A DNA stretch of 64,000 nucleotides from a virus. Below the pieces are notes generated by a model. It had not been told where the DNA came from, did not search any database, and saw only the letters and a program-made list of their open reading frames with translations. Position numbers and translations under genes: made by a program. This document shows positions 3,468 to 40,035 of the stretch, one piece after another (within the stretch, counting starts at the first letter, position 1; each line of letters starts with the position of its first letter). The stretch covers positions 186,001-250,000 of the IMG/VR virus record IMGVR_UViG_3300008261_000001, one strand, 5' to 3'.

Positions 3468-6104
3468 TTATTCTGTAAAGAGGGCGGTTATATCCCTTCC
3501 ACTATATTTAACCACAAAAGGCTTACCTGCTTGCTCTTTTATCCAATCAGCCACCATTTTGGCGGTGTGTTCAGATAAGTCTTTGACCTCATAGGTGGGC
3601 TTTGGTGGCTCTACAGGCTTAGGTGGAGGTGCAGGCTTGGGGTCTGGCTTCTTTCCACCGAAGATACGGATAAGATCCTCGCTTCCTTCCCCATTGAGTA
3701 CATCGCGTAGGTTGTCTTCGACCGTCCAATCTTTCCCTATCTCTACATCAACGGTGAGGGGTACATCCCAGTTCATGCGTTGGATAATCTTATTGCGAGT
3801 CATAAGCTCACAAAGCACAGGGACAGCTTCCGTTAACAAGTCCTTGTGTATCTCAAAGACGATTTCGTCGTGTACCGTAAGGATCATCTTAAAGCGGTCA
3901 AACCATCCATTCTTCTTGGCGGTTTTGTAGATGAGGCTCATGGCGAGCTTGGTTATATCCGCAGATGTACCTTGAACGGGTCCGTTCACAGCCTTGCGTT
4001 CGTCTTTAGAGCGGTTGCGGAAGTCTTTATCCTTTATGGAGGGCAAGGGCTGAACACGCCCCATAGCGGTCTTTACATATCCATTTTTCTTACCGAACTG
4101 ATGTTGGTGATCCCACCATGCGGTGAGTACATCGTAAGCCTTAGTGAAGAGCTTGTACTTTTCCTCGCCCTCTTCAGCCGTACAACCGATAGTGCGTTGA
4201 ACAGCTTTGCCCGTGCCACCATAGGATAGAGCGAAGTTGCACCCCTTTCCGTTTCCGCGTAGGGCTTTCCAATCTGGTCTGGACTTGGCAGACTCGCCAT
4301 AGAAGGCTACAGCGGTCACCGTGTGCAGATCACCGATCTTATCCGAGCCACAGACGCAGGTAGGAGGTGGTGCTTTACGGAAGCCCTGTTCGTCCATTTC
4401 TCTAGGGTACTGAGCCCCACACTCAGAACACTCGAAGAACGCCTTTATCCATTTAGGCTCACCCGATAGGTTGGTGACGAGGCGTAGCTCAACACCTGAA
4501 TAGTCTATCGCCACAAGATACCAATCTGGGTGCCTTACACCTATACACTTGCGTAGGTTAGAGATACACTCTGGCTTTGTTGGGTCGTATGTGGCGGGTA
4601 TGCCTTGAAATGGCACACGACACCCTCCGTCTTTGGTCTTTTTAGGGTCTGAAGTCGTCTTGCATGAGAAACGCCCTGTGTCAGCCGCGAACTGATCAAA
4701 CTTGGGCATGAGCGTTCCATCTTCAGCGACATCCTCAACAAAGGGAATAAGGTACTGACCGAGGGACTTTCCAAGCATACGGAAGCGTTTGACCTTTTCC
4801 ATAAATGGAAAAGTCTCGCTCGCCTTCTTAATGACCTCGTCTAGAACATCTGCCGATGTTGCGACTTGTCCAGATTTCTCTGTGGCGATGAGGTTGGGTA
4901 CGCCCAGCTCTCTGAATAATAAACCAAGCTGTTGAGGGCTCAACAAGTCGTACACAAGGGGGAAGTCCACATCTTCCATACCTCTACCCTCTTCCTCGCT
5001 GTACATCTCAATCTCTCCATCTTCATTTGTTTTAAAAGATGCAGTACTGAGCTTAGTGACGGATTTGGATAGTGACCCCTTAATGTCTGGGTACATACGA
5101 TCCGCTTCCTTGCGGGCTTCGTCTACACGGATTTTGTAGTTGTACCCATTTCCGACTTCCATGTGGTCAAAGCGATTAAGACCCTTTATGTCCCCCTTAA
5201 GAAGCCTAATGTAGTTTGGCATGATATCACGCCCTACGATTTCGCTCGCACCTGCATACACCTCTAAGAGAGAGTCAAACCACTCGCGTTGACCATCTTG
5301 ACAGAAGCGTAGGGCGGTCTTTTGATCCACATAGACACGATTACGATGAACCCACCGCACCGACACGAGAGTGGACTTCTCAAGAGCGTAGATGGTGTTG
5401 GTGTGGTATCCGCTGTTGGTGTACTGCTTATTGAGAACTTCAAATAAGCCGAGGGTACACATAGCGTCAGACGCTCCGTACCACTTACACGGCTCCCATG
5501 ATGGGTCTAGCTTGGAGAAGTTTTTATTCGGGCTGTCTGGCATGAGGTCATCAAGCTCAATCATCTCACGCTGTAGTAGCTCGTTGCTGAGATGCTTTAA
5601 GCCTCGTCCGCCTTTGGTGCGGGGGTCTAGCAGATACTTGAGAATATAGGTGTCGTGCCACTTACCACTATCCCAACGAGCTTCACCTAGTCCCTTATGA
5701 TATCCATTAAACTCAAGTACCTCTTGGTCGAATCCAGCGTTATGAAATATAGGCTGTGCTTCAACGGATAGGTCAAACAAACGCTCTAGAGCAGGTCCCA
5801 TGAGCCTCCACGGAACATTGTATTCAGAACCCTCTTGGTGAGCTATCGGAAAGTAATAGCCCCTGTTCTTTGTGGGGGCAAGGCACACGCCTACAACAGA
5901 CTCCCTTGTTCTGCCGTTGAACACCCTCAGATCAAGACCTGTTGTCTCAGTATCCAATCCATAGACTTTATCTGGTGCGTTGATACACTCGTTTATGGCT
6001 TGGTCTAGGTTTTCTCTAGTGCCGAGGATTAACTCACAGTCTTTCATCCACGACTTCTGCGTTATGTTCGGTCGCCTTAACGCCTCTAGCATATCCATTA
6101 ACAT
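3468..6104 (-). CDS. Family A DNA polymerase with 3'-5' exonuclease
   Basis: 878 aa replicative-type Pol I. The N-terminal DEDDy exonuclease looks active: DTETTGLD (D51, E53), HNAGFD, and YGASD. Polymerase motif A is DYSGVELRL (about residue 533), motif B KGCNFALSYG (about 625, with Phe rather than Tyr at the sugar-selecting position), motif C LTVHDEIVFE (about 745). There is no 5' nuclease domain. Two unusual parts: a CxxC...CxC pair (about 558 and 585) inserted after motif A, and a Pro-Lys-rich linker (about 815-835) leading to an extra C-terminal tail of about 50 residues. A GGGGG site lies 9 bases before the first ATG. Confidence 0.95.
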   Translation of the reverse strand: MLMDMLEALRRPNITQKSWMKDCELILGTRENLDQAINECINAPDKVYGLDTETTGLDLRVFNGRTRESVVGVCLAPTKNRGYYFPIAHQEGSEYNVPWRLMGPALERLFDLSVEAQPIFHNAGFDQEVLEFNGYHKGLGEARWDSGKWHDTYILKYLLDPRTKGGRGLKHLSNELLQREMIELDDLMPDSPNKNFSKLDPSWEPCKWYGASDAMCTLGLFEVLNKQYTNSGYHTNTIYALEKSTLVSVRWVHRNRVYVDQKTALRFCQDGQREWFDSLLEVYAGASEIVGRDIMPNYIRLLKGDIKGLNRFDHMEVGNGYNYKIRVDEARKEADRMYPDIKGSLSKSVTKLSTASFKTNEDGEIEMYSEEEGRGMEDVDFPLVYDLLSPQQLGLLFRELGVPNLIATEKSGQVATSADVLDEVIKKASETFPFMEKVKRFRMLGKSLGQYLIPFVEDVAEDGTLMPKFDQFAADTGRFSCKTTSDPKKTKDGGCRVPFQGIPATYDPTKPECISNLRKCIGVRHPDWYLVAIDYSGVELRLVTNLSGEPKWIKAFFECSECGAQYPREMDEQGFRKAPPPTCVCGSDKIGDLHTVTAVAFYGESAKSRPDWKALRGNGKGCNFALSYGGTGKAVQRTIGCTAEEGEEKYKLFTKAYDVLTAWWDHQHQFGKKNGYVKTAMGRVQPLPSIKDKDFRNRSKDERKAVNGPVQGTSADITKLAMSLIYKTAKKNGWFDRFKMILTVHDEIVFEIHKDLLTEAVPVLCELMTRNKIIQRMNWDVPLTVDVEIGKDWTVEDNLRDVLNGEGSEDLIRIFGGKKPDPKPAPPPKPVEPPKPTYEVKDLSEHTAKMVADWIKEQAGKPFVVKYSGRDITALFTE

Positions 6105-32974: not shown

Positions 32975-33745
32975 TCAACGCCACACGGAGGGGACATACT
33001 CGAAGGGGATCTTGTTCCTTGTGAGCAACGCCTTAAACGACTCAAAGTCTAGGTTGGAGATATTTCCAATAGAGTCGAGTAAGAACCACAGCTTACGCCT
33101 CGCCGCAGGGGTTTTAGGCTGATAGAACGCACTCGTCCCCTCAGAGTAGTCATAGTCATCCTTTAACTTTGAGAACTGTGCTGACTCCCATTTCACAGAT
33201 ACATGGAAATCCTTACCTGTCATTTCAATGGGTCTGTAGTTAAAGGGCTTCACCTCTACAGCCTTGAGGGTATCCATAGAGGGCTTGTACACTTCCGCAG
33301 TTAACGAATAGAAGTCTGGTGTGATATGCCCTTTATTGGTGAGGTACTTCTCCGCCTTCTTTACAAGGAAAGTGAGTACCGCACGAATAAAGCCAACACA
33401 AGCATCGAAGTCGAGACGAGAAATGCCACCGAGTTTCTTAATGGCATCCTCTATGCTACTTGCATCAAATAAAGACACCCTATACACCCTCGACAACTGA
33501 TAGTCCGTCCAACCGAGTCTCTCCCAACTCGCTTTCTTTACGGTAACACCCCTTAAACCTATAGGCATTTCGGTGAGCGTAATCCCCGCATCCTTCACCT
33601 CAAGCTGACAACCATTACCCATCAACTTCACAACGCCATTGCTCGCAATACGCCTACGACTTTGATTAGTAGAAGCAGTACGACCACCTTCTAAACGGGC
33701 GATACGAGCTTCTAAACTTCTTAATACATCACTTGCTGTTCTCAT
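32975..33745 (-). CDS. Shared-leader family protein, 256 aa
   Basis: Begins MRTASDVLRSLEARIARLEG, followed by GRTAS. The body is a mixed alpha/beta domain with helices around 100-150 and a C-terminal part with DFESFKALLTRNKIPFEYVP. GGAG lies 7-8 bases before the ATG in an imperfect inverted-repeat leader with a CTATTTATTA box. It converges on the methyltransferase gene with a 1-base gap. Confidence 0.6.
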   Translation of the reverse strand: MRTASDVLRSLEARIARLEGGRTASTNQSRRRIASNGVVKLMGNGCQLEVKDAGITLTEMPIGLRGVTVKKASWERLGWTDYQLSRVYRVSLFDASSIEDAIKKLGGISRLDFDACVGFIRAVLTFLVKKAEKYLTNKGHITPDFYSLTAEVYKPSMDTLKAVEVKPFNYRPIEMTGKDFHVSVKWESAQFSKLKDDYDYSEGTSAFYQPKTPAARRKLWFLLDSIGNISNLDFESFKALLTRNKIPFEYVPSVWR

Positions 33746-33845: not shown

Positions 33846-35186
33846 CTATGACAGAAATACCCTCACCTTATCTACAACCGACTGCTCGTCTGAGAGAATA
33901 TCAGATTCCCAAATCACAAGGCAATCAAGCCCTACCTCAGCGTAAGCCTCTATCGTGTTTCGCTCATGATCCTCTTTACTCATACCCGTCTTAGACTCCC
34001 CATGCCAATAATCTCCAAAACACTCTACAACCTTTGTAGCACCACGATAAGGATGATCTGAGTCTTCACTCACACAAACCACAAAGTCTGGGTTCTTGTA
34101 GCCACCAATAGATCCATCGAAGTTCTTCTTGCTAGGGAGAAATCTCCAATACGCCCCATTACCTGTAAATGTGAGCTTGTCGCTGTACGAGGCAACCCTC
34201 GACTCGAAGCCATTCATTCTATTTGCGACTAAGCCCAAAAAAGGTGTACCATACCTCTTTATGTTTGTCTCGTACTGTTTGTCCCTAAACTCTTGAAGCT
34301 GTAGTGGGTGTTCTACACCATAGCGTTCTAGGAAGGTTTCTTTAACCCTATCCCAATGCCCCTCGATACTACCAGGAAACTCAACCCCATATCTATCCAT
34401 CATCACAGCCCTAATATCGTCTTTGCCCTTTTGTGAGGCGAAATAGTGGCTACCATAGTTCTCAATCATCGTTTTGATTTGCTTCTGCCTAAACTCCTCC
34501 ACAGCACTTGTGTAGGGTACTCCATACCGCTCCATATTCGTGGCTACGATCTTAGCCTTTACCTCATCACTCATACTAGGATTAGGCACACCATATTTAT
34601 CCATATTCGTAGCCTCGATCTTAGCCCTAAGTTCATCTGAACCCAATAGCGTTCCACCATAACGATCAAGGTTAGTCGCTTGAGTTTTAGCCTTAACCTC
34701 ATTGTTTTGCTGAGGGTTGACCGCACCATATCTCTCAAGATTTGTCTGCTTAATCTTATCCTGTACACTCTCCCACGCAAACGGATTTTCCTTACCCTTT
34801 AAGACAGGTCTCTTACCCTCAAGAGCATCTTGTACTTTTTCAAATACGAGACTCTCCTTTGAAAAAGGGTTTTCTGCACCATATCGTTCTAGGTTCGTTT
34901 GCTTACGCTTCTCTACAGACTCTTTGTTGTGGGCAGGGTTAGATACACCATAACGATCAAGGTAAGTATTTCTCCTTCTCGCATTAGCAATCGCCTTTTG
35001 ATCCCTACCTTTCCACACATCACACCCACTCTTGTGCCTTTTCATTTGTGTATTGGATGTAGAGTTGTGACCACATACACAGGGTGCGATAGGTTCAGGT
35101 TTCCAATCTGTCCAACACACCTTGCGGTGTCTCCCACTAATAGTTGGAGTACTGAACTCTTTTTTACAATATGGACAAACAGCCAT
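33846..35186 (-). CDS. Homing endonuclease, Vsr-like (EDxHD type), with DNA-reading repeats
   Basis: 446 aa. Two N-terminal Cys/His clusters (CPYCKKEF...RHRKVC and CVCGH...KRHKSGC) are followed by eight or nine repeats around TNLERYGVxNP (about 70-320), of the type found in phage homing enzymes. The C-terminal nuclease has NPDFVV, VVECFGDYWHGE and GLDCLVIWESDI, matching Vsr-like endonucleases. It lies 100 bases after the C-terminal half of the split-intein gene, on the same strand. AAGAAGGGG precedes the ATG. Confidence 0.8.
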   Translation of the reverse strand: MAVCPYCKKEFSTPTISGRHRKVCWTDWKPEPIAPCVCGHNSTSNTQMKRHKSGCDVWKGRDQKAIANARRRNTYLDRYGVSNPAHNKESVEKRKQTNLERYGAENPFSKESLVFEKVQDALEGKRPVLKGKENPFAWESVQDKIKQTNLERYGAVNPQQNNEVKAKTQATNLDRYGGTLLGSDELRAKIEATNMDKYGVPNPSMSDEVKAKIVATNMERYGVPYTSAVEEFRQKQIKTMIENYGSHYFASQKGKDDIRAVMMDRYGVEFPGSIEGHWDRVKETFLERYGVEHPLQLQEFRDKQYETNIKRYGTPFLGLVANRMNGFESRVASYSDKLTFTGNGAYWRFLPSKKNFDGSIGGYKNPDFVVCVSEDSDHPYRGATKVVECFGDYWHGESKTGMSKEDHERNTIEAYAEVGLDCLVIWESDILSDEQSVVDKVRVFLS

Positions 35187-35285: not shown

Positions 35286-35969
35286 TTAGACCACACTCAA
35301 AAATGCGGATAACATATCGTAAGTAACTATAAACAAAGGGAAAACCAAAAAGTTTCTGGGACCAAGAACCCCTCGACCCACATGGGGTCCGAAGGCTGAA
35401 CGGATACCGATGCCATATTTGGGTTGTTGTAGTCCACGCATGAACTTGGTGGTTCGTGTTTTGGCTTCTACGCTGGACTGCCACATGGCTTCGGCACTAG
35501 ATTTTAAGCCTTCGTACTTGGAGCTACGCTCCAAATCTAAGGATATGCCGCCGATGGAATATGTGTTGTGGGCGAGTATTCCATTAGCGAGTACAAAGTT
35601 CTCGTTTTTGGGTACACATAGGTCATAAGTGTGTTCACAATTTTCTTCTAGGGTAATGTTTGTAATGGCACACTCTTTAACTTGCTCTCCCTCCACGATA
35701 ACGAGGGTATCCCCCACCGAAAATTGGTCTGTCTCAATGGGCTTAATTTTTCCGCTTTCTAGTGTGAAGAGGGAGTGGTCTTCGGTGGCTATAACAAATT
35801 GACCATTATCGAGTTCTATTCTAAGTATCTTCTTATGCGGTGTGTGGTGCTTCATCACATCAGAGATAACTTGGTATTTTACTTCGCTGGTGTCATTGTC
35901 TACAGACAGTACTTTAAGCTCCCCATTTAAGAAGGCTTGTTTTATTGTTTGTTTGATTTGATTGTCCAT
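35286..35969 (-). CDS. C-terminal half of split-intein virion protein
   Basis: 227 aa. Residues 1-135 are a C-intein with block B (ATEDHSLF, T-x-x-H), block F (YDLCVPKNENFVLANG) and block G (ILAHN, then Thr+1 at 35564-35562). Residues 136-227 are the C-extein, starting TYSIGGISLDLERSS. Trans-splicing would join it to the N-extein encoded at 36913-37689. The ATG overlaps the stop of the endonuclease gene (TGATG), with AGGAG 6 bases upstream; a GTG three bases earlier is also possible. The last 20 residues after GPRNF are hydrophobic and look like an unrelated addition. Confidence 0.88.
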   Translation of the reverse strand: MDNQIKQTIKQAFLNGELKVLSVDNDTSEVKYQVISDVMKHHTPHKKILRIELDNGQFVIATEDHSLFTLESGKIKPIETDQFSVGDTLVIVEGEQVKECAITNITLEENCEHTYDLCVPKNENFVLANGILAHNTYSIGGISLDLERSSKYEGLKSSAEAMWQSSVEAKTRTTKFMRGLQQPKYGIGIRSAFGPHVGRGVLGPRNFLVFPLFIVTYDMLSAFLSVV

Positions 35970-36913
35970 CACACGCTCCTTTGCTTTATTAGAGTTTTTA
36001 TTTTTTCGAGACAGATATGGGGTGCGTTGTAGATCTCGTGTTCTTTTATTCTAAGAACAGCCCATCCTAGTTTAGAGAGGTTTGTGTTTTTGGACTTATC
36101 GTTTCCAGATATTCTGTCGGTTGGAGCAAACCCACATATTTCACATCCATGCCAATAACAACCGTCAACCTCTATGGCGATTTTGAGGTGGGGTATGGCC
36201 TCGTCTATTTGATAGTAAGAAACATTGTGCTCGGTTTGAGTCTCTATACGCTCTGAAACGAGGATCTGTTTGAGAGCCTGATGTGGTTTTGTGAAGGTGT
36301 GTTTGATGTATTGTCTAGCATTCTTAATGCTGTCTAGAACTTGCTCTCTATTTTCCTCTTGCCATTTTTGTATTTTTTCATGGTGGGTTTTAGTAGCCCA
36401 CATAGCTTTGGACTTATTGCTCTTCTTGCAGATAGATACTGGGTTTTTATTGGATTTCCTTAGGGATTCCTTAATCCGATCACCTATCTCACTTTGTTGC
36501 ATCTTTGCACTTGCTTGACTGATCTTTTTCCTTGTCTCCTCTCCTTGAGGTGTTTTAAACCTTTCTTTTAAAGTGTTAGATTGTTTAATCTTTTGCTCTT
36601 CTGACTTCTTTTTGTTTCCCTTCGTAAAAGCACACATAACTGGAGCGTCCGTGTACTTTTCGAAGTAAGATTTAAGATCCAAACCCGAGCAAGCCCTTAA
36701 GTGTTTTGTGGTTATTTGGGCGAGCCTTGAACCACATTCTTTACAGAGAACATAATGCTCGTTCTCTTTTAGTAGATTAAAAGAGCTGGATTCAATTAGT
36801 GGTAAATTACCGACTGAAGGTGAGGTCTTGAGAATACCTTCAGTAATCAGGCTCCTTATGTGCTTTTGATTGAATCCATACTCTTGGATTATATCTTTTT
36901 GCTTTATTAGCAT
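35969..36913 (-). CDS. Free-standing Vsr-like homing endonuclease within split intein
   Basis: 314 aa. The N-terminal segment may be a winged-helix (MLIKQKDIIQEYGFNQKH). Then comes a MucR/Ros-like zinc cluster (LCKECGSRL...HLRACSGL), basic NUMOD-like repeats, and a C-terminal nuclease with IAIEVDGCYWHGC and KLGWAVLRIKEHEI, as in Vsr and related homing enzymes. Its ATG overlaps the stop of the N-half (TAATG) and its stop overlaps the start of the C-half. The region looks more AT-rich than its neighbours, which suggests recent arrival. It would cut uninterrupted alleles and spread the locus. Confidence 0.85.
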   Translation of the reverse strand: MLIKQKDIIQEYGFNQKHIRSLITEGILKTSPSVGNLPLIESSSFNLLKENEHYVLCKECGSRLAQITTKHLRACSGLDLKSYFEKYTDAPVMCAFTKGNKKKSEEQKIKQSNTLKERFKTPQGEETRKKISQASAKMQQSEIGDRIKESLRKSNKNPVSICKKSNKSKAMWATKTHHEKIQKWQEENREQVLDSIKNARQYIKHTFTKPHQALKQILVSERIETQTEHNVSYYQIDEAIPHLKIAIEVDGCYWHGCEICGFAPTDRISGNDKSKNTNLSKLGWAVLRIKEHEIYNAPHICLEKIKTLIKQRSV

Positions 36914-37689
36914 TATGACCCTCCTTTTATTATTTCATGGAGTTCCTCAATGGTGAGCTTAACCTTCTGACCGTTGGGGAGCAACACTTCTAGCTCTGTA
37001 TCCCCCCTAACCGAGAACTCGTCCACTATCCAATTTGCTTGTAGAGCCATAGCAGCGAACTGAATGGCACCTTGCAGTATAGGGGTTCTCCAAGCGGGCT
37101 TTTGAGCGATGAGCTGATCTAGGCTAGATATATCTTCGGTCTCAGGAGGTTGCATATTCCACCAGTCTAAAGACCGCTCAAGGTACTCCAACATTTCCTC
37201 GTCTTCCCACACTTGTCCGAAGACGCGATTGTAGTTGTTAATGTGGGACTCGTTCTCAGGTGGGCGGAAGTGATAAAATTTATCTGGGTTAGTGTCACGG
37301 ACCAGCATACGGAGCTTCCAAACCATTGACTTTTGACCCTCAGTCATAGAGGTTCCTAAGACGGTGCTGTCGGATACCACCTCGAACTCTTGCACGACCG
37401 TTTGAGCGGGAGAGTTGACTAGCTCCTTGAGTGTCCACCTTATCCTATATCTACCAAAAGTAGCTGTGGTGGGTATGCGTACTGAGGCATAGTACTCGCC
37501 CACGGAAGGGTTCTCAGGTAGGCGGGCAGGGTCACCTATAAGCACATCGGTTTCAGGTGGACCTACATCTACGAAATAGAGGGCGTAAGTTATCTCAGCC
37601 GCATTGGATACATTTCCTGCCGAGTTGGTGAGGAATATATCCAAGTCGCCCCGCCCAAGTATTTGATTCCTCTTAAAGACGACTGCCAT
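36913..37689 (-). CDS. N-terminal half of split-intein virion protein
   Basis: 258 aa. Residues 1-225 are an N-extein: an Ig-like beta domain (YALYFVDVGPPETDVLIG, GEYYASVRIP, GRYRIRWTL) and a helical part ending ANWIVDEF. From S226 (37014-37012) the last 33 residues are an N-intein starting SVRGDTELEVLLPNG (block A). The N-extein resembles neck or tail adaptor proteins of myoviruses; the name is inference. An intact product of about 317 residues would form only after trans-splicing. The leader has a 13-bp hairpin. Confidence 0.85.
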   Translation of the reverse strand: MAVVFKRNQILGRGDLDIFLTNSAGNVSNAAEITYALYFVDVGPPETDVLIGDPARLPENPSVGEYYASVRIPTTATFGRYRIRWTLKELVNSPAQTVVQEFEVVSDSTVLGTSMTEGQKSMVWKLRMLVRDTNPDKFYHFRPPENESHINNYNRVFGQVWEDEEMLEYLERSLDWWNMQPPETEDISSLDQLIAQKPAWRTPILQGAIQFAAMALQANWIVDEFSVRGDTELEVLLPNGQKVKLTIEELHEIIKGGS

Positions 37690-38580: not shown

Positions 38581-38901
38581 TCAGTCAAGCATAATTTTGA
38601 AACTCCCTCCCGTAGAGGACTCTATGTTCCAGACAATACGGAAAATTAAAGCATTGCCGCCCCCCACCGGTCGAACAACAATCTTGTTTATATTCCCAAG
38701 TCTTATCTCCCAAGAATCTGGCTCGCCTAAATTATTTTCCCACATAATATGTGTGATTGTGGCTTCAACCATCGCCATCATATCTTTGGATAAATTATCG
38801 TATCCTGGGGCTGACTTTAGACCGCCTGATGCGACCTTACTTTGCTCAAGGCGAGCGATACGAGCTTCTAGGCTTCTTAACACTTCTGATGCTGTTCTCA
38901 T
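38581..38901 (-). CDS. Shared-leader family protein, short form, 106 aa
   Basis: Begins MRTASEVLRSLEARIARLEQ, then SKVAS. It is the shortest member: the leader, a helix (about 35-58), and a small beta region (IVVRPVGGGNALIFRIVWNI) that resembles the strand region of the protein at 26036-26878. GGAG lies 8 bases upstream within a long inverted repeat. It could be a minimal cargo form. Confidence 0.6.
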   Translation of the reverse strand: MRTASEVLRSLEARIARLEQSKVASGGLKSAPGYDNLSKDMMAMVEATITHIMWENNLGEPDSWEIRLGNINKIVVRPVGGGNALIFRIVWNIESSTGGSFKIMLD

Positions 38902-38988: not shown

Positions 38989-40035
38989 TCACCAAGTGTT
39001 GGTTATGGAGCGGATAATGGCTTCGCATACAAGATAGGGGTCAGCATTGGCGTTGGGTCTGCGATCCTCAAAGTACCCATAACCGACTCTTTGGGTTTCT
39101 AGGGGGATGCGTATGGAGCAAGTGCGGTCAGATACACCCCATTTGAACTGATCATAGCGGCAGGTTTCGTGATGACCTGTGAGTCTTATTTCATAGCCTG
39201 CTCCGTAGCGGGCTAGGTGTTGTGGGACGAACTTTCCAATGTTCTCAACCGCCTCGATGATTTTAGAGTATCCATTTGGACTTCTCATTTCGAGAGTAGA
39301 GAAGTTGGTGTGCATACCAGCTCCGTTCCAATCGCCTGTGATGGGCTTAGGGTCTAGGGTAGCGGAGATGCCATATTCCTCACCTACGCGGTAAAGAAGC
39401 CAACGGGCGAGCCATAAGAAATCTGAAGCGTCTAAGGCGTTGACATTTGGACCACCGATTTGAAACTCCCATTGCCCTGGCATAACTTCAGCGTTGATGC
39501 CTGTTATGGGTAGTCCTGCTTGGAGGCATAGCTCTAGGTGTTTTTCAACGAGGTCTCTACCTGAAACCTCATCTGCACCAACACCGCAGTAGTATGGACC
39601 TTGAGCGGGAGGGAATCTACGCTCTGAGGGGAAGCCGAGAGGACGAGAGCCATCGTAAAGGGTGTACTCTTGTTCAAAGGCGACCCATTCGTCTTGCCCT
39701 TCAAACACATAGAGTACTCTTTTGAGTTGTTGGCGTGTGTTGGTGGGGTGTGATGTGCCATCAGCCATAAAGACTTCGCACAAGGCGAGGTAGCTACCTT
39801 CGCCACGGAGGGGGTCTTTAATGACTTTAACGGGCTTTAGTAGGCAATCAGATGATTTGCCCTCGGCTTGGTTTGTGGACGACCCATCGAAAGACCAAAG
39901 GGGTAGGTCATCGGGTGAGGGTGTTTGAAAACCGCTGAGGTCTATAACATCTTTGCGTTCGGGTATGACTTTAGTCTTAGACCTTACGCGGGCTGTGGGG
40001 TATCCACCATCTATCCAAATGTATTCGACAATCAT
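38989..40035 (-). CDS. Glutamine synthetase, type II (GSII)
   Basis: 348 aa, full length for the GSII family, which is mainly eukaryotic and found in some bacteria. Key segments: WSFDGSSTNQAEG (D50), FEQEYTL (E121, E123), GINAEVMPGQWEFQIGG (E183, E190), GDWNGAGMHTNFST (H242), VSDRTCSIRIP and FEDRRPNANADPY. The enzyme makes glutamine from glutamate, ammonia and ATP, so the phage may supply nitrogen for nucleotide synthesis. It has its own leader with a CGTATAG/CTATACG repeat. Every family landmark is intact. Confidence 0.95.
   Translation of the reverse strand: MIVEYIWIDGGYPTARVRSKTKVIPERKDVIDLSGFQTPSPDDLPLWSFDGSSTNQAEGKSSDCLLKPVKVIKDPLRGEGSYLALCEVFMADGTSHPTNTRQQLKRVLYVFEGQDEWVAFEQEYTLYDGSRPLGFPSERRFPPAQGPYYCGVGADEVSGRDLVEKHLELCLQAGLPITGINAEVMPGQWEFQIGGPNVNALDASDFLWLARWLLYRVGEEYGISATLDPKPITGDWNGAGMHTNFSTLEMRSPNGYSKIIEAVENIGKFVPQHLARYGAGYEIRLTGHHETCRYDQFKWGVSDRTCSIRIPLETQRVGYGYFEDRRPNANADPYLVCEAIIRSITNTW

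Follow-up and report, generated by a model that had tools for sequence, protein, structure and literature searches.

Fractured genes carrying split inteins and Vsr-like homing endonucleases were reportedly described by Dassa et al. in 2009, and the earlier hosts of such genes were replication or nucleotide enzymes. AceL NrdHF is a later example, with a GIY-YIG endonuclease (PMC7891396). Here we describe a fractured gene for what is probably a connector-like virion protein, located at positions 35286-37689 of a 64,000-nucleotide stretch of viral DNA (the window; positions 186,001 to 250,000 of IMG/VR virus record IMGVR_UViG_3300008261_000001). The host gene is broken at a split intein, an endonuclease gene lies between the halves, and uninterrupted homologues exist. 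We consider it very probable that the locus is a mobile split intein, that the halves of the virion protein are trans-spliced, and that the endonuclease drives homing. As in the fractured genes of Dassa et al., the endonuclease gene separates split-intein halves in phage-like metagenomic DNA; unlike in those genes, the host is a connector-like virion protein, the one gene has two sites whose endonucleases are unrelated, the N part is short and begins with Ser1, and empty, degenerate, contiguous, and permuted alleles are all available.

In its intein the locus resembles another group of systems. PolB16 OarG, the only natural atypically split cysteine-less intein known (PMC13014065), likewise combines Ser1 and Ser/Thr+1 with a short N-intein and an NX-motif histidine (PMC10189870). 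However, its N-intein has 15 residues, compared with 31-35 in most alleles at the window's insertion site (site 2), the host proteins differ, and here the natural alleles comprise 17 that are split and 2 that are contiguous, with non-junction cysteines present (three in the window's C part). The succession of a short N-intein and a long C-intein is also that of AceL-TerL, GOS TerL, and VidaL (PMC13014065, PMC10189870), but AceL and GOS TerL are cysteine-dependent and lie in terminase, and GOS TerL pairs Ser1 with Cys+1 and has no NX histidine. The Aes123 PolB1 / CL cysteine-less intein (9hth; PMC13014065) is similar in fold and Ser1 chemistry, but it is naturally split where inteins usually carry the endonuclease, and its short-N version is engineered. 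A fast, efficient natural atypically split cysteine-less intein is said to be lacking (2026 paper, PMC13014065); the 17 natural split alleles provide a family of short-N-intein Ser1/Ser+1(Thr+1) split inteins. To our knowledge, as far as the literature covered goes, several features of this system are new: a virion structural host for a fractured gene; the presence in a single gene of two mobile split inteins whose endonucleases are unrelated, which gives a protein naturally in three pieces; a split-intein gene pair in permuted order; a return from the split to the contiguous form that can be read in the DNA; and a coupled swap of the extein residues at +1 and +10.

The divided gene and its intein

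The locus consists of three minus-strand genes in series, with neighbours overlapping by single bases. The first, gene N (37689..36913), encodes 258 residues. Residues 1-225 (37015..37689) belong to the head-tail-connector-like virion protein and end in ANWIVDEF, while the last 33, SVRGDTELEVLLPNGQKVKLTIEELHEIIKGGS, form the N-intein (36916..37014; SVRGDTELEVLL...GGS), which has Ser1 and block A. The homing endonuclease gene (36913..35969) encodes 314 residues. Gene C, which runs from the ATG at 35969 to its end at 35286, encodes 227 residues; the first 135 are the C-intein (35565..35969), with blocks B, F, and G, KH as the NX motif, TEDH as N3, and the end ILAHN, and the following 92 are the C-extein (35289..35564), which reads from Thr+1 through YSIGGISL to Asp+10. 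The fused extein thus has 225 + 92 = 317 residues. The TAATG in which gene N stops and the endonuclease gene starts (36911..36915) is preceded by AAAAGGAGGG, and the TGATG in which the endonuclease gene stops and gene C starts (35967..35971) is preceded by AAAGGAGCG. Each half thus has a stop or start of its own, together with a Shine-Dalgarno-like sequence. A preliminary description of this DNA, made from the letters alone, had reported these three genes, both overlaps, and a 33-residue Ser1 N-intein; the overlaps are exact to the base on the minus strand, and the coordinates of the N-intein agree. Its further remark that full translational coupling is unusual was overstated, since single-base stop/start overlaps are common in phage genes and in themselves unremarkable, and many relatives have overlaps of 4 to 14 bases instead.

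Gene C matches the intein models of Pfam (Intein_splicing, 5.6e-15) and of NCBIfam (intein_Nterm, 1.3e-7; intein_Cterm, 9.9e-8), in keeping with the C-intein of 135 residues, ILAHN, and Thr+1 given in the preliminary description. When class-1 inteins are defined by a nucleophile at position 1, TxxH in N3, a C-terminal HN, and Cys, Ser, or Thr at +1, the window has Ser1, TEDH, HN, and Thr+1, and the same pattern is seen in 19/19 site-2 alleles (17 split and two, L056 and L059, contiguous). The N-intein is 31-35 residues long in most of these alleles and 43 to 62 in three; the longer N-inteins of L098 (62 residues) and L101 (57 residues), which are the most divergent site-2 alleles, have charged tails. 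Inteins of the Ser1/Ser+1(Thr+1) type bear a special 'NX' histidine after Arg or Lys that Cys1 inteins do not have (PMC10189870). This histidine is present in 19/19 site-2 inteins, where the residue before it is K/R in 15, Q in 3, and E in 1, and no His occupies the NX position in the Cys1 inteins found at a second site in the same gene (site 1). The site-2 inteins are not cysteine-less in the strict sense: the window's C-intein has three non-junction cysteines, and none of the 19 alleles is wholly Cys-free. An AlphaFold2 (AF2) model of the contiguous L059 intein, a homologue that stands in for the window's two halves as evidence of a HINT fold, has a predicted local distance difference test (pLDDT) score of 91.8, and its top PDB matches are inteins, with cysteine-less Aes123 PolB1 among the best (9hth, TM 0.74). 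The NX histidine and this predicted fold support the reading of a short Ser1 N-intein with Thr+1.

In the proposed mechanism, the halves of the connector-like protein would be translated separately, each with part of a Ser1 class-1 intein; the intein parts would then bind, fold into a single HINT domain, and splice in trans, joining VDEF to TYSIGG in the one 317-residue protein. A different route would join the halves in the RNA (through a group I intron) or by ribosomal bypass over the endonuclease gene. It has precedents, since introns or bypass deal with endonuclease-gene interruptions of other phage genes, as in T4, but here it is very improbable. An Rfam search of the region found no intron family, each half has the signals for its own translation, the ends at the break encode intein blocks, and in one relative, L078, the permuted gene order rules out read-through or bypass (see below). 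It is scarcely credible that the arrangement is an assembly artefact or a pseudogene, even though all of the data are metagenomic: L021, an independent contig, has a near-identical copy of the window's arrangement, and many other contigs have homologous ones with intact frames and a low ratio of nonsynonymous to synonymous substitution rates (dN/dS). The source record, which is 290,179 bases long, contains baseplate wedge genes and a family-A DNA polymerase, which argues for a large contractile-tailed phage; no second intact copy of either half, or of the whole gene, was found in this record.

The host protein, its insertion sites, and the allele states

A search with the fused extein matched 62 viral loci, most of them unbroken through the junction and up to 91% identical. 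From this search and further scans, 93 distinct exteins were classified, of which 67 are uninterrupted; the other 26 are broken at either or both of two sites, and they include L065, a piece of the window's own record. The counts of occupied alleles are not frequencies, since several of the scans targeted the intein and the endonucleases. The proposal that the exteins form one protein of 317 residues is borne out, since uninterrupted homologues align straight over the junction; rather than being separate proteins without intein-like ends, relatives are normally one protein, and every broken one has intein ends. The PHROG family phrog_17327 ('head-tail connector') matches 19/28 uninterrupted relatives (best 6.4e-6, a moderate match), the homologue in Tunturi_5 is annotated as a head-tail connector protein by its depositor, and a Pfam search with the extein gave no match; judging from sequence, the host is probably a connector-like virion protein. 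In the phage collection searched, isolates have the extein only, split at site 1 in LR745208 and uninterrupted in Tunturi_5, and no isolate with the site-2 intein or endonuclease was found. Outside the window, a 106-residue open frame at G000:C1:283959-284276 (+) is 34% identical to the connector N-terminal domain and is likely a connector paralogue in the same phage. Additional copies of this domain lie upstream of the connector gene in L024 (648-1046), L055 (1503-1883), L074 (1047-1340), L192 (5932), and L195 (983).

Site 2, the window's, follows residue 225, and site 1 follows residue 132. The site-1 inteins have Cys1 and Cys/Ser+1, and the inteins of each site form one clade (100/99). Empty alleles are seen at both sites. 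The split form with an endonuclease gene is present in the window, L029, L057, and others, while at site 1 of L061 the gene is split but the endonuclease has been deleted to a 33-codon remnant. (In this remnant, at L061 6019-6110, a TnsA-like endonuclease gene has an in-frame internal deletion at a GAAAAGGAG repeat, and 33 codons plus the ribosome-binding site of the next gene remain.) The intein is contiguous at site 1 of L055 and at site 2 of L056 and L059. Both sites are split, with both endonucleases, in L074/L097 and L093; the result is an array of five genes that encodes the virion protein in three pieces, and in these phages the protein would come from three polypeptides. Finally, L078 is permuted: its C-half gene lies upstream of its N-half gene, and it has no endonuclease. 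The L078 halves can be joined only in trans, between two proteins. Overall, the system suggests that a component of the virion may require protein trans-splicing, in some cases two rounds of it.

The contiguous L059 intein is nested in the split site-2 clade (95/87 with L029), and its mid-intein DNA retains both a Shine-Dalgarno-like GGAG and gene C's ATGATG. The junction falls between two AAAG(AG)GAG repeats, which serve the endonuclease gene and gene C as ribosome-binding sites. On the simplest reading, the two repeats recombined, which removed the endonuclease and restored the intein as a single frame. Because all allele states occur in related phages, including a reversion with a readable DNA scar, the question of how split inteins arise, and whether they can return to the contiguous form, is now directly testable on one gene.

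The allele states also bear on whether the halves are spliced at all. The window's record does hold the two halves as separate genes, as would be the case if they no longer spliced and were two subunits that assemble non-covalently, with the intein remnants as passive tails. This is improbable, given that all catalytic motifs, the HN end, and Ser/Thr+1 are retained in 19/19 site-2 alleles, and that one contiguous allele inside the split clade must splice to yield the protein. In addition, the intein parts are under strong purifying selection: dN/dS is <=0.25 for both intein parts and the endonuclease in every computable pair (saturated synonymous sites precluded the calculation in two comparisons), and it is ~0.04 for the window N-intein versus that of L029.

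Endonucleases, probable homing, and the +1/+10 residues

The window endonuclease has a C-terminal part that is a Vsr/MTES_1575/EDxHD-like nuclease and an N-terminal part that is, by eye, Cys/His zinc-finger-like. The enzyme had been called Vsr-like, and the matches agree with this: MTES_1575 matches 4/4 family members, DUF559 4/4, and Vsr 3/4, and for the window protein itself MTES_1575 and DUF559 score above the cut-off, whereas Pfam Vsr (24.1) falls below its cut-off of 27. A profile of the enzyme matches PDB 3r3p ('Mobile intron protein', E=7.6e-4), which we take to be the EDxHD enzyme I-Bth0305I, and also 3hrl. The likeness to I-Bth0305I (3r3p; PMC3943268) is in the nuclease-domain profile and the Vsr-type motif; that enzyme is intron-encoded, whereas the window enzyme is encoded between intein halves and differs in its N-terminal part. 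Full-length relatives of the window endonuclease are found only between the intein halves of site 2. The site-1 endonuclease belongs to another family, TnsA-like (PF08722, with 5/5 members matching), and is found at full length only at site 1.

In a tree of the exteins from which the junction columns were left out, occupancy changes 15 times at site 2 and 9 times at site 1. Between L029 and L061, the N-intein, endonuclease, and C-intein are 91% identical, compared with 69-81% for the exteins and ~41% for the neighbouring DNA, the mark of horizontal transfer of the element. A codon alignment of occupied alleles with their nearest empty relatives reveals a footprint: the 30 nucleotides just downstream of site 2 (codons +1 to +10; 35535..35564 in the window, minus strand) show lower identity than the remainder of the gene (-0.14, versus +0.03 in empty-empty controls; p=1.3e-5), and there is no drop in identity upstream of the site. 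Where the encoded residue is the same, the codons are identical in 35% of cases within the footprint and in 61% elsewhere. This pattern fits co-conversion of donor DNA during homing, with a cut downstream of the insertion point, and would make these 30 nucleotides the likely target zone of the endonuclease. The Vsr/EDxHD-like endonuclease would cut an empty allele a short way downstream of where the intein inserts, and repair off the occupied allele would, judging from the allele pattern, copy both intein parts, the endonuclease gene, and ~30 nucleotides of downstream extein, including Ser/Thr+1 and Asp+10.

The intein persists without an intact endonuclease gene in L055, L056, L059 (site 2), L061 (site 1), and L078, as it would if the endonuclease were a passenger, or had other targets, and the intein spread only through ordinary phage recombination. 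We regard the passenger reading as unlikely, because the two endonuclease families are each restricted to a single site in this one gene, purifying selection acts on the endonuclease, and endonuclease-driven conversion would be expected to leave just such a downstream footprint.

Within the footprint, two residues distinguish occupied from empty alleles. Empty site-2 alleles have Asp at +1 and Ser, Asn, Thr, or Ala at +10 in 72/72 cases; in the 19 occupied alleles, +1 is Ser (16) or Thr (3), and +10 is Asp (18) or Glu (1). Among the extein columns, only these two track occupancy perfectly (p ~6e-20; the next best column, 9e-5), and all phylogenetically independent pairs agree on the swap (12/12, p=0.0005). 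At site 1, +1 is mostly Asn in empty alleles (74/81) and Cys or Ser in occupied ones. An AF2 model of an empty homologue places strands 227-229 and 232-234 about a Gly-Gly turn, with low confidence there; +1 and +10 would be cross-strand partners in this modelled beta-hairpin, and the acid at +10 would balance the lost Asp+1. Going by the allele sequences, then, the element leaves a substitution at a conserved residue with an accompanying second-site acid, through co-conversion, compensation, or both. In this way inteins can alter conserved host residues, with a matching change elsewhere.

Several points weigh against this account of a mobile, trans-splicing element in a connector gene. The splicing and cleavage reactions are ones that we infer from sequence. 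The footprint could reflect selection against endonuclease recognition or re-cutting instead of co-conversion. The 'connector' label comes from the moderate PHROG match and one depositor's annotation; the AF2 extein model, of an empty homologue, has a pLDDT of 71 (~45 at the hairpin) and found no match among PDB folds at E<=0.001. No second contig with the permuted order was found, L078 being the one contig.

With these points considered, we are fairly confident in a fuller picture. It comprises two orthogonal, independently mobile split inteins (Cys1 at site 1, Ser1 at site 2) with unrelated endonucleases; a virion protein that in some phages is made from three polypeptides through two trans-splicings; a reversible cycle of empty, split with endonuclease, split with dead endonuclease, re-fused contiguous, and permuted states; and an insertion that is not traceless, with the +1 substitution offset by a cross-strand acid at +10.

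Neighbouring and related genes

A free-standing homing endonuclease gene of the DUF7487/phrog_3339 type (33846..35186, minus strand) lies just downstream of the connector gene, outside the intein. A DUF7487 homologue is present <=3 kb downstream in 37/84 relatives with enough flanking sequence, with no clear link to occupancy (13/25 occupied, 24/59 empty). The neighbourhood of the connector gene attracts endonucleases, whether the gene is occupied or not.

Contig L083 carries, at 4013-6044, an apparent fractured gene for an AAA+ ATPase, with a split intein and an HNH-like endonuclease gene between the halves; it was rejected as a member of the connector family, being a relative of the C-intein in a different split-intein gene. 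Within the window, the proteins encoded at 32975-33745 and 38581-38901 (minus strand) share the N-terminal sequence MRTASxVLRSLEARIARLE. A glutamine-synthetase-like gene at 38989-40035 (minus strand; Gln-synt_C 6e-20, Gln-synt_N 5e-10) is possibly an auxiliary metabolic gene.
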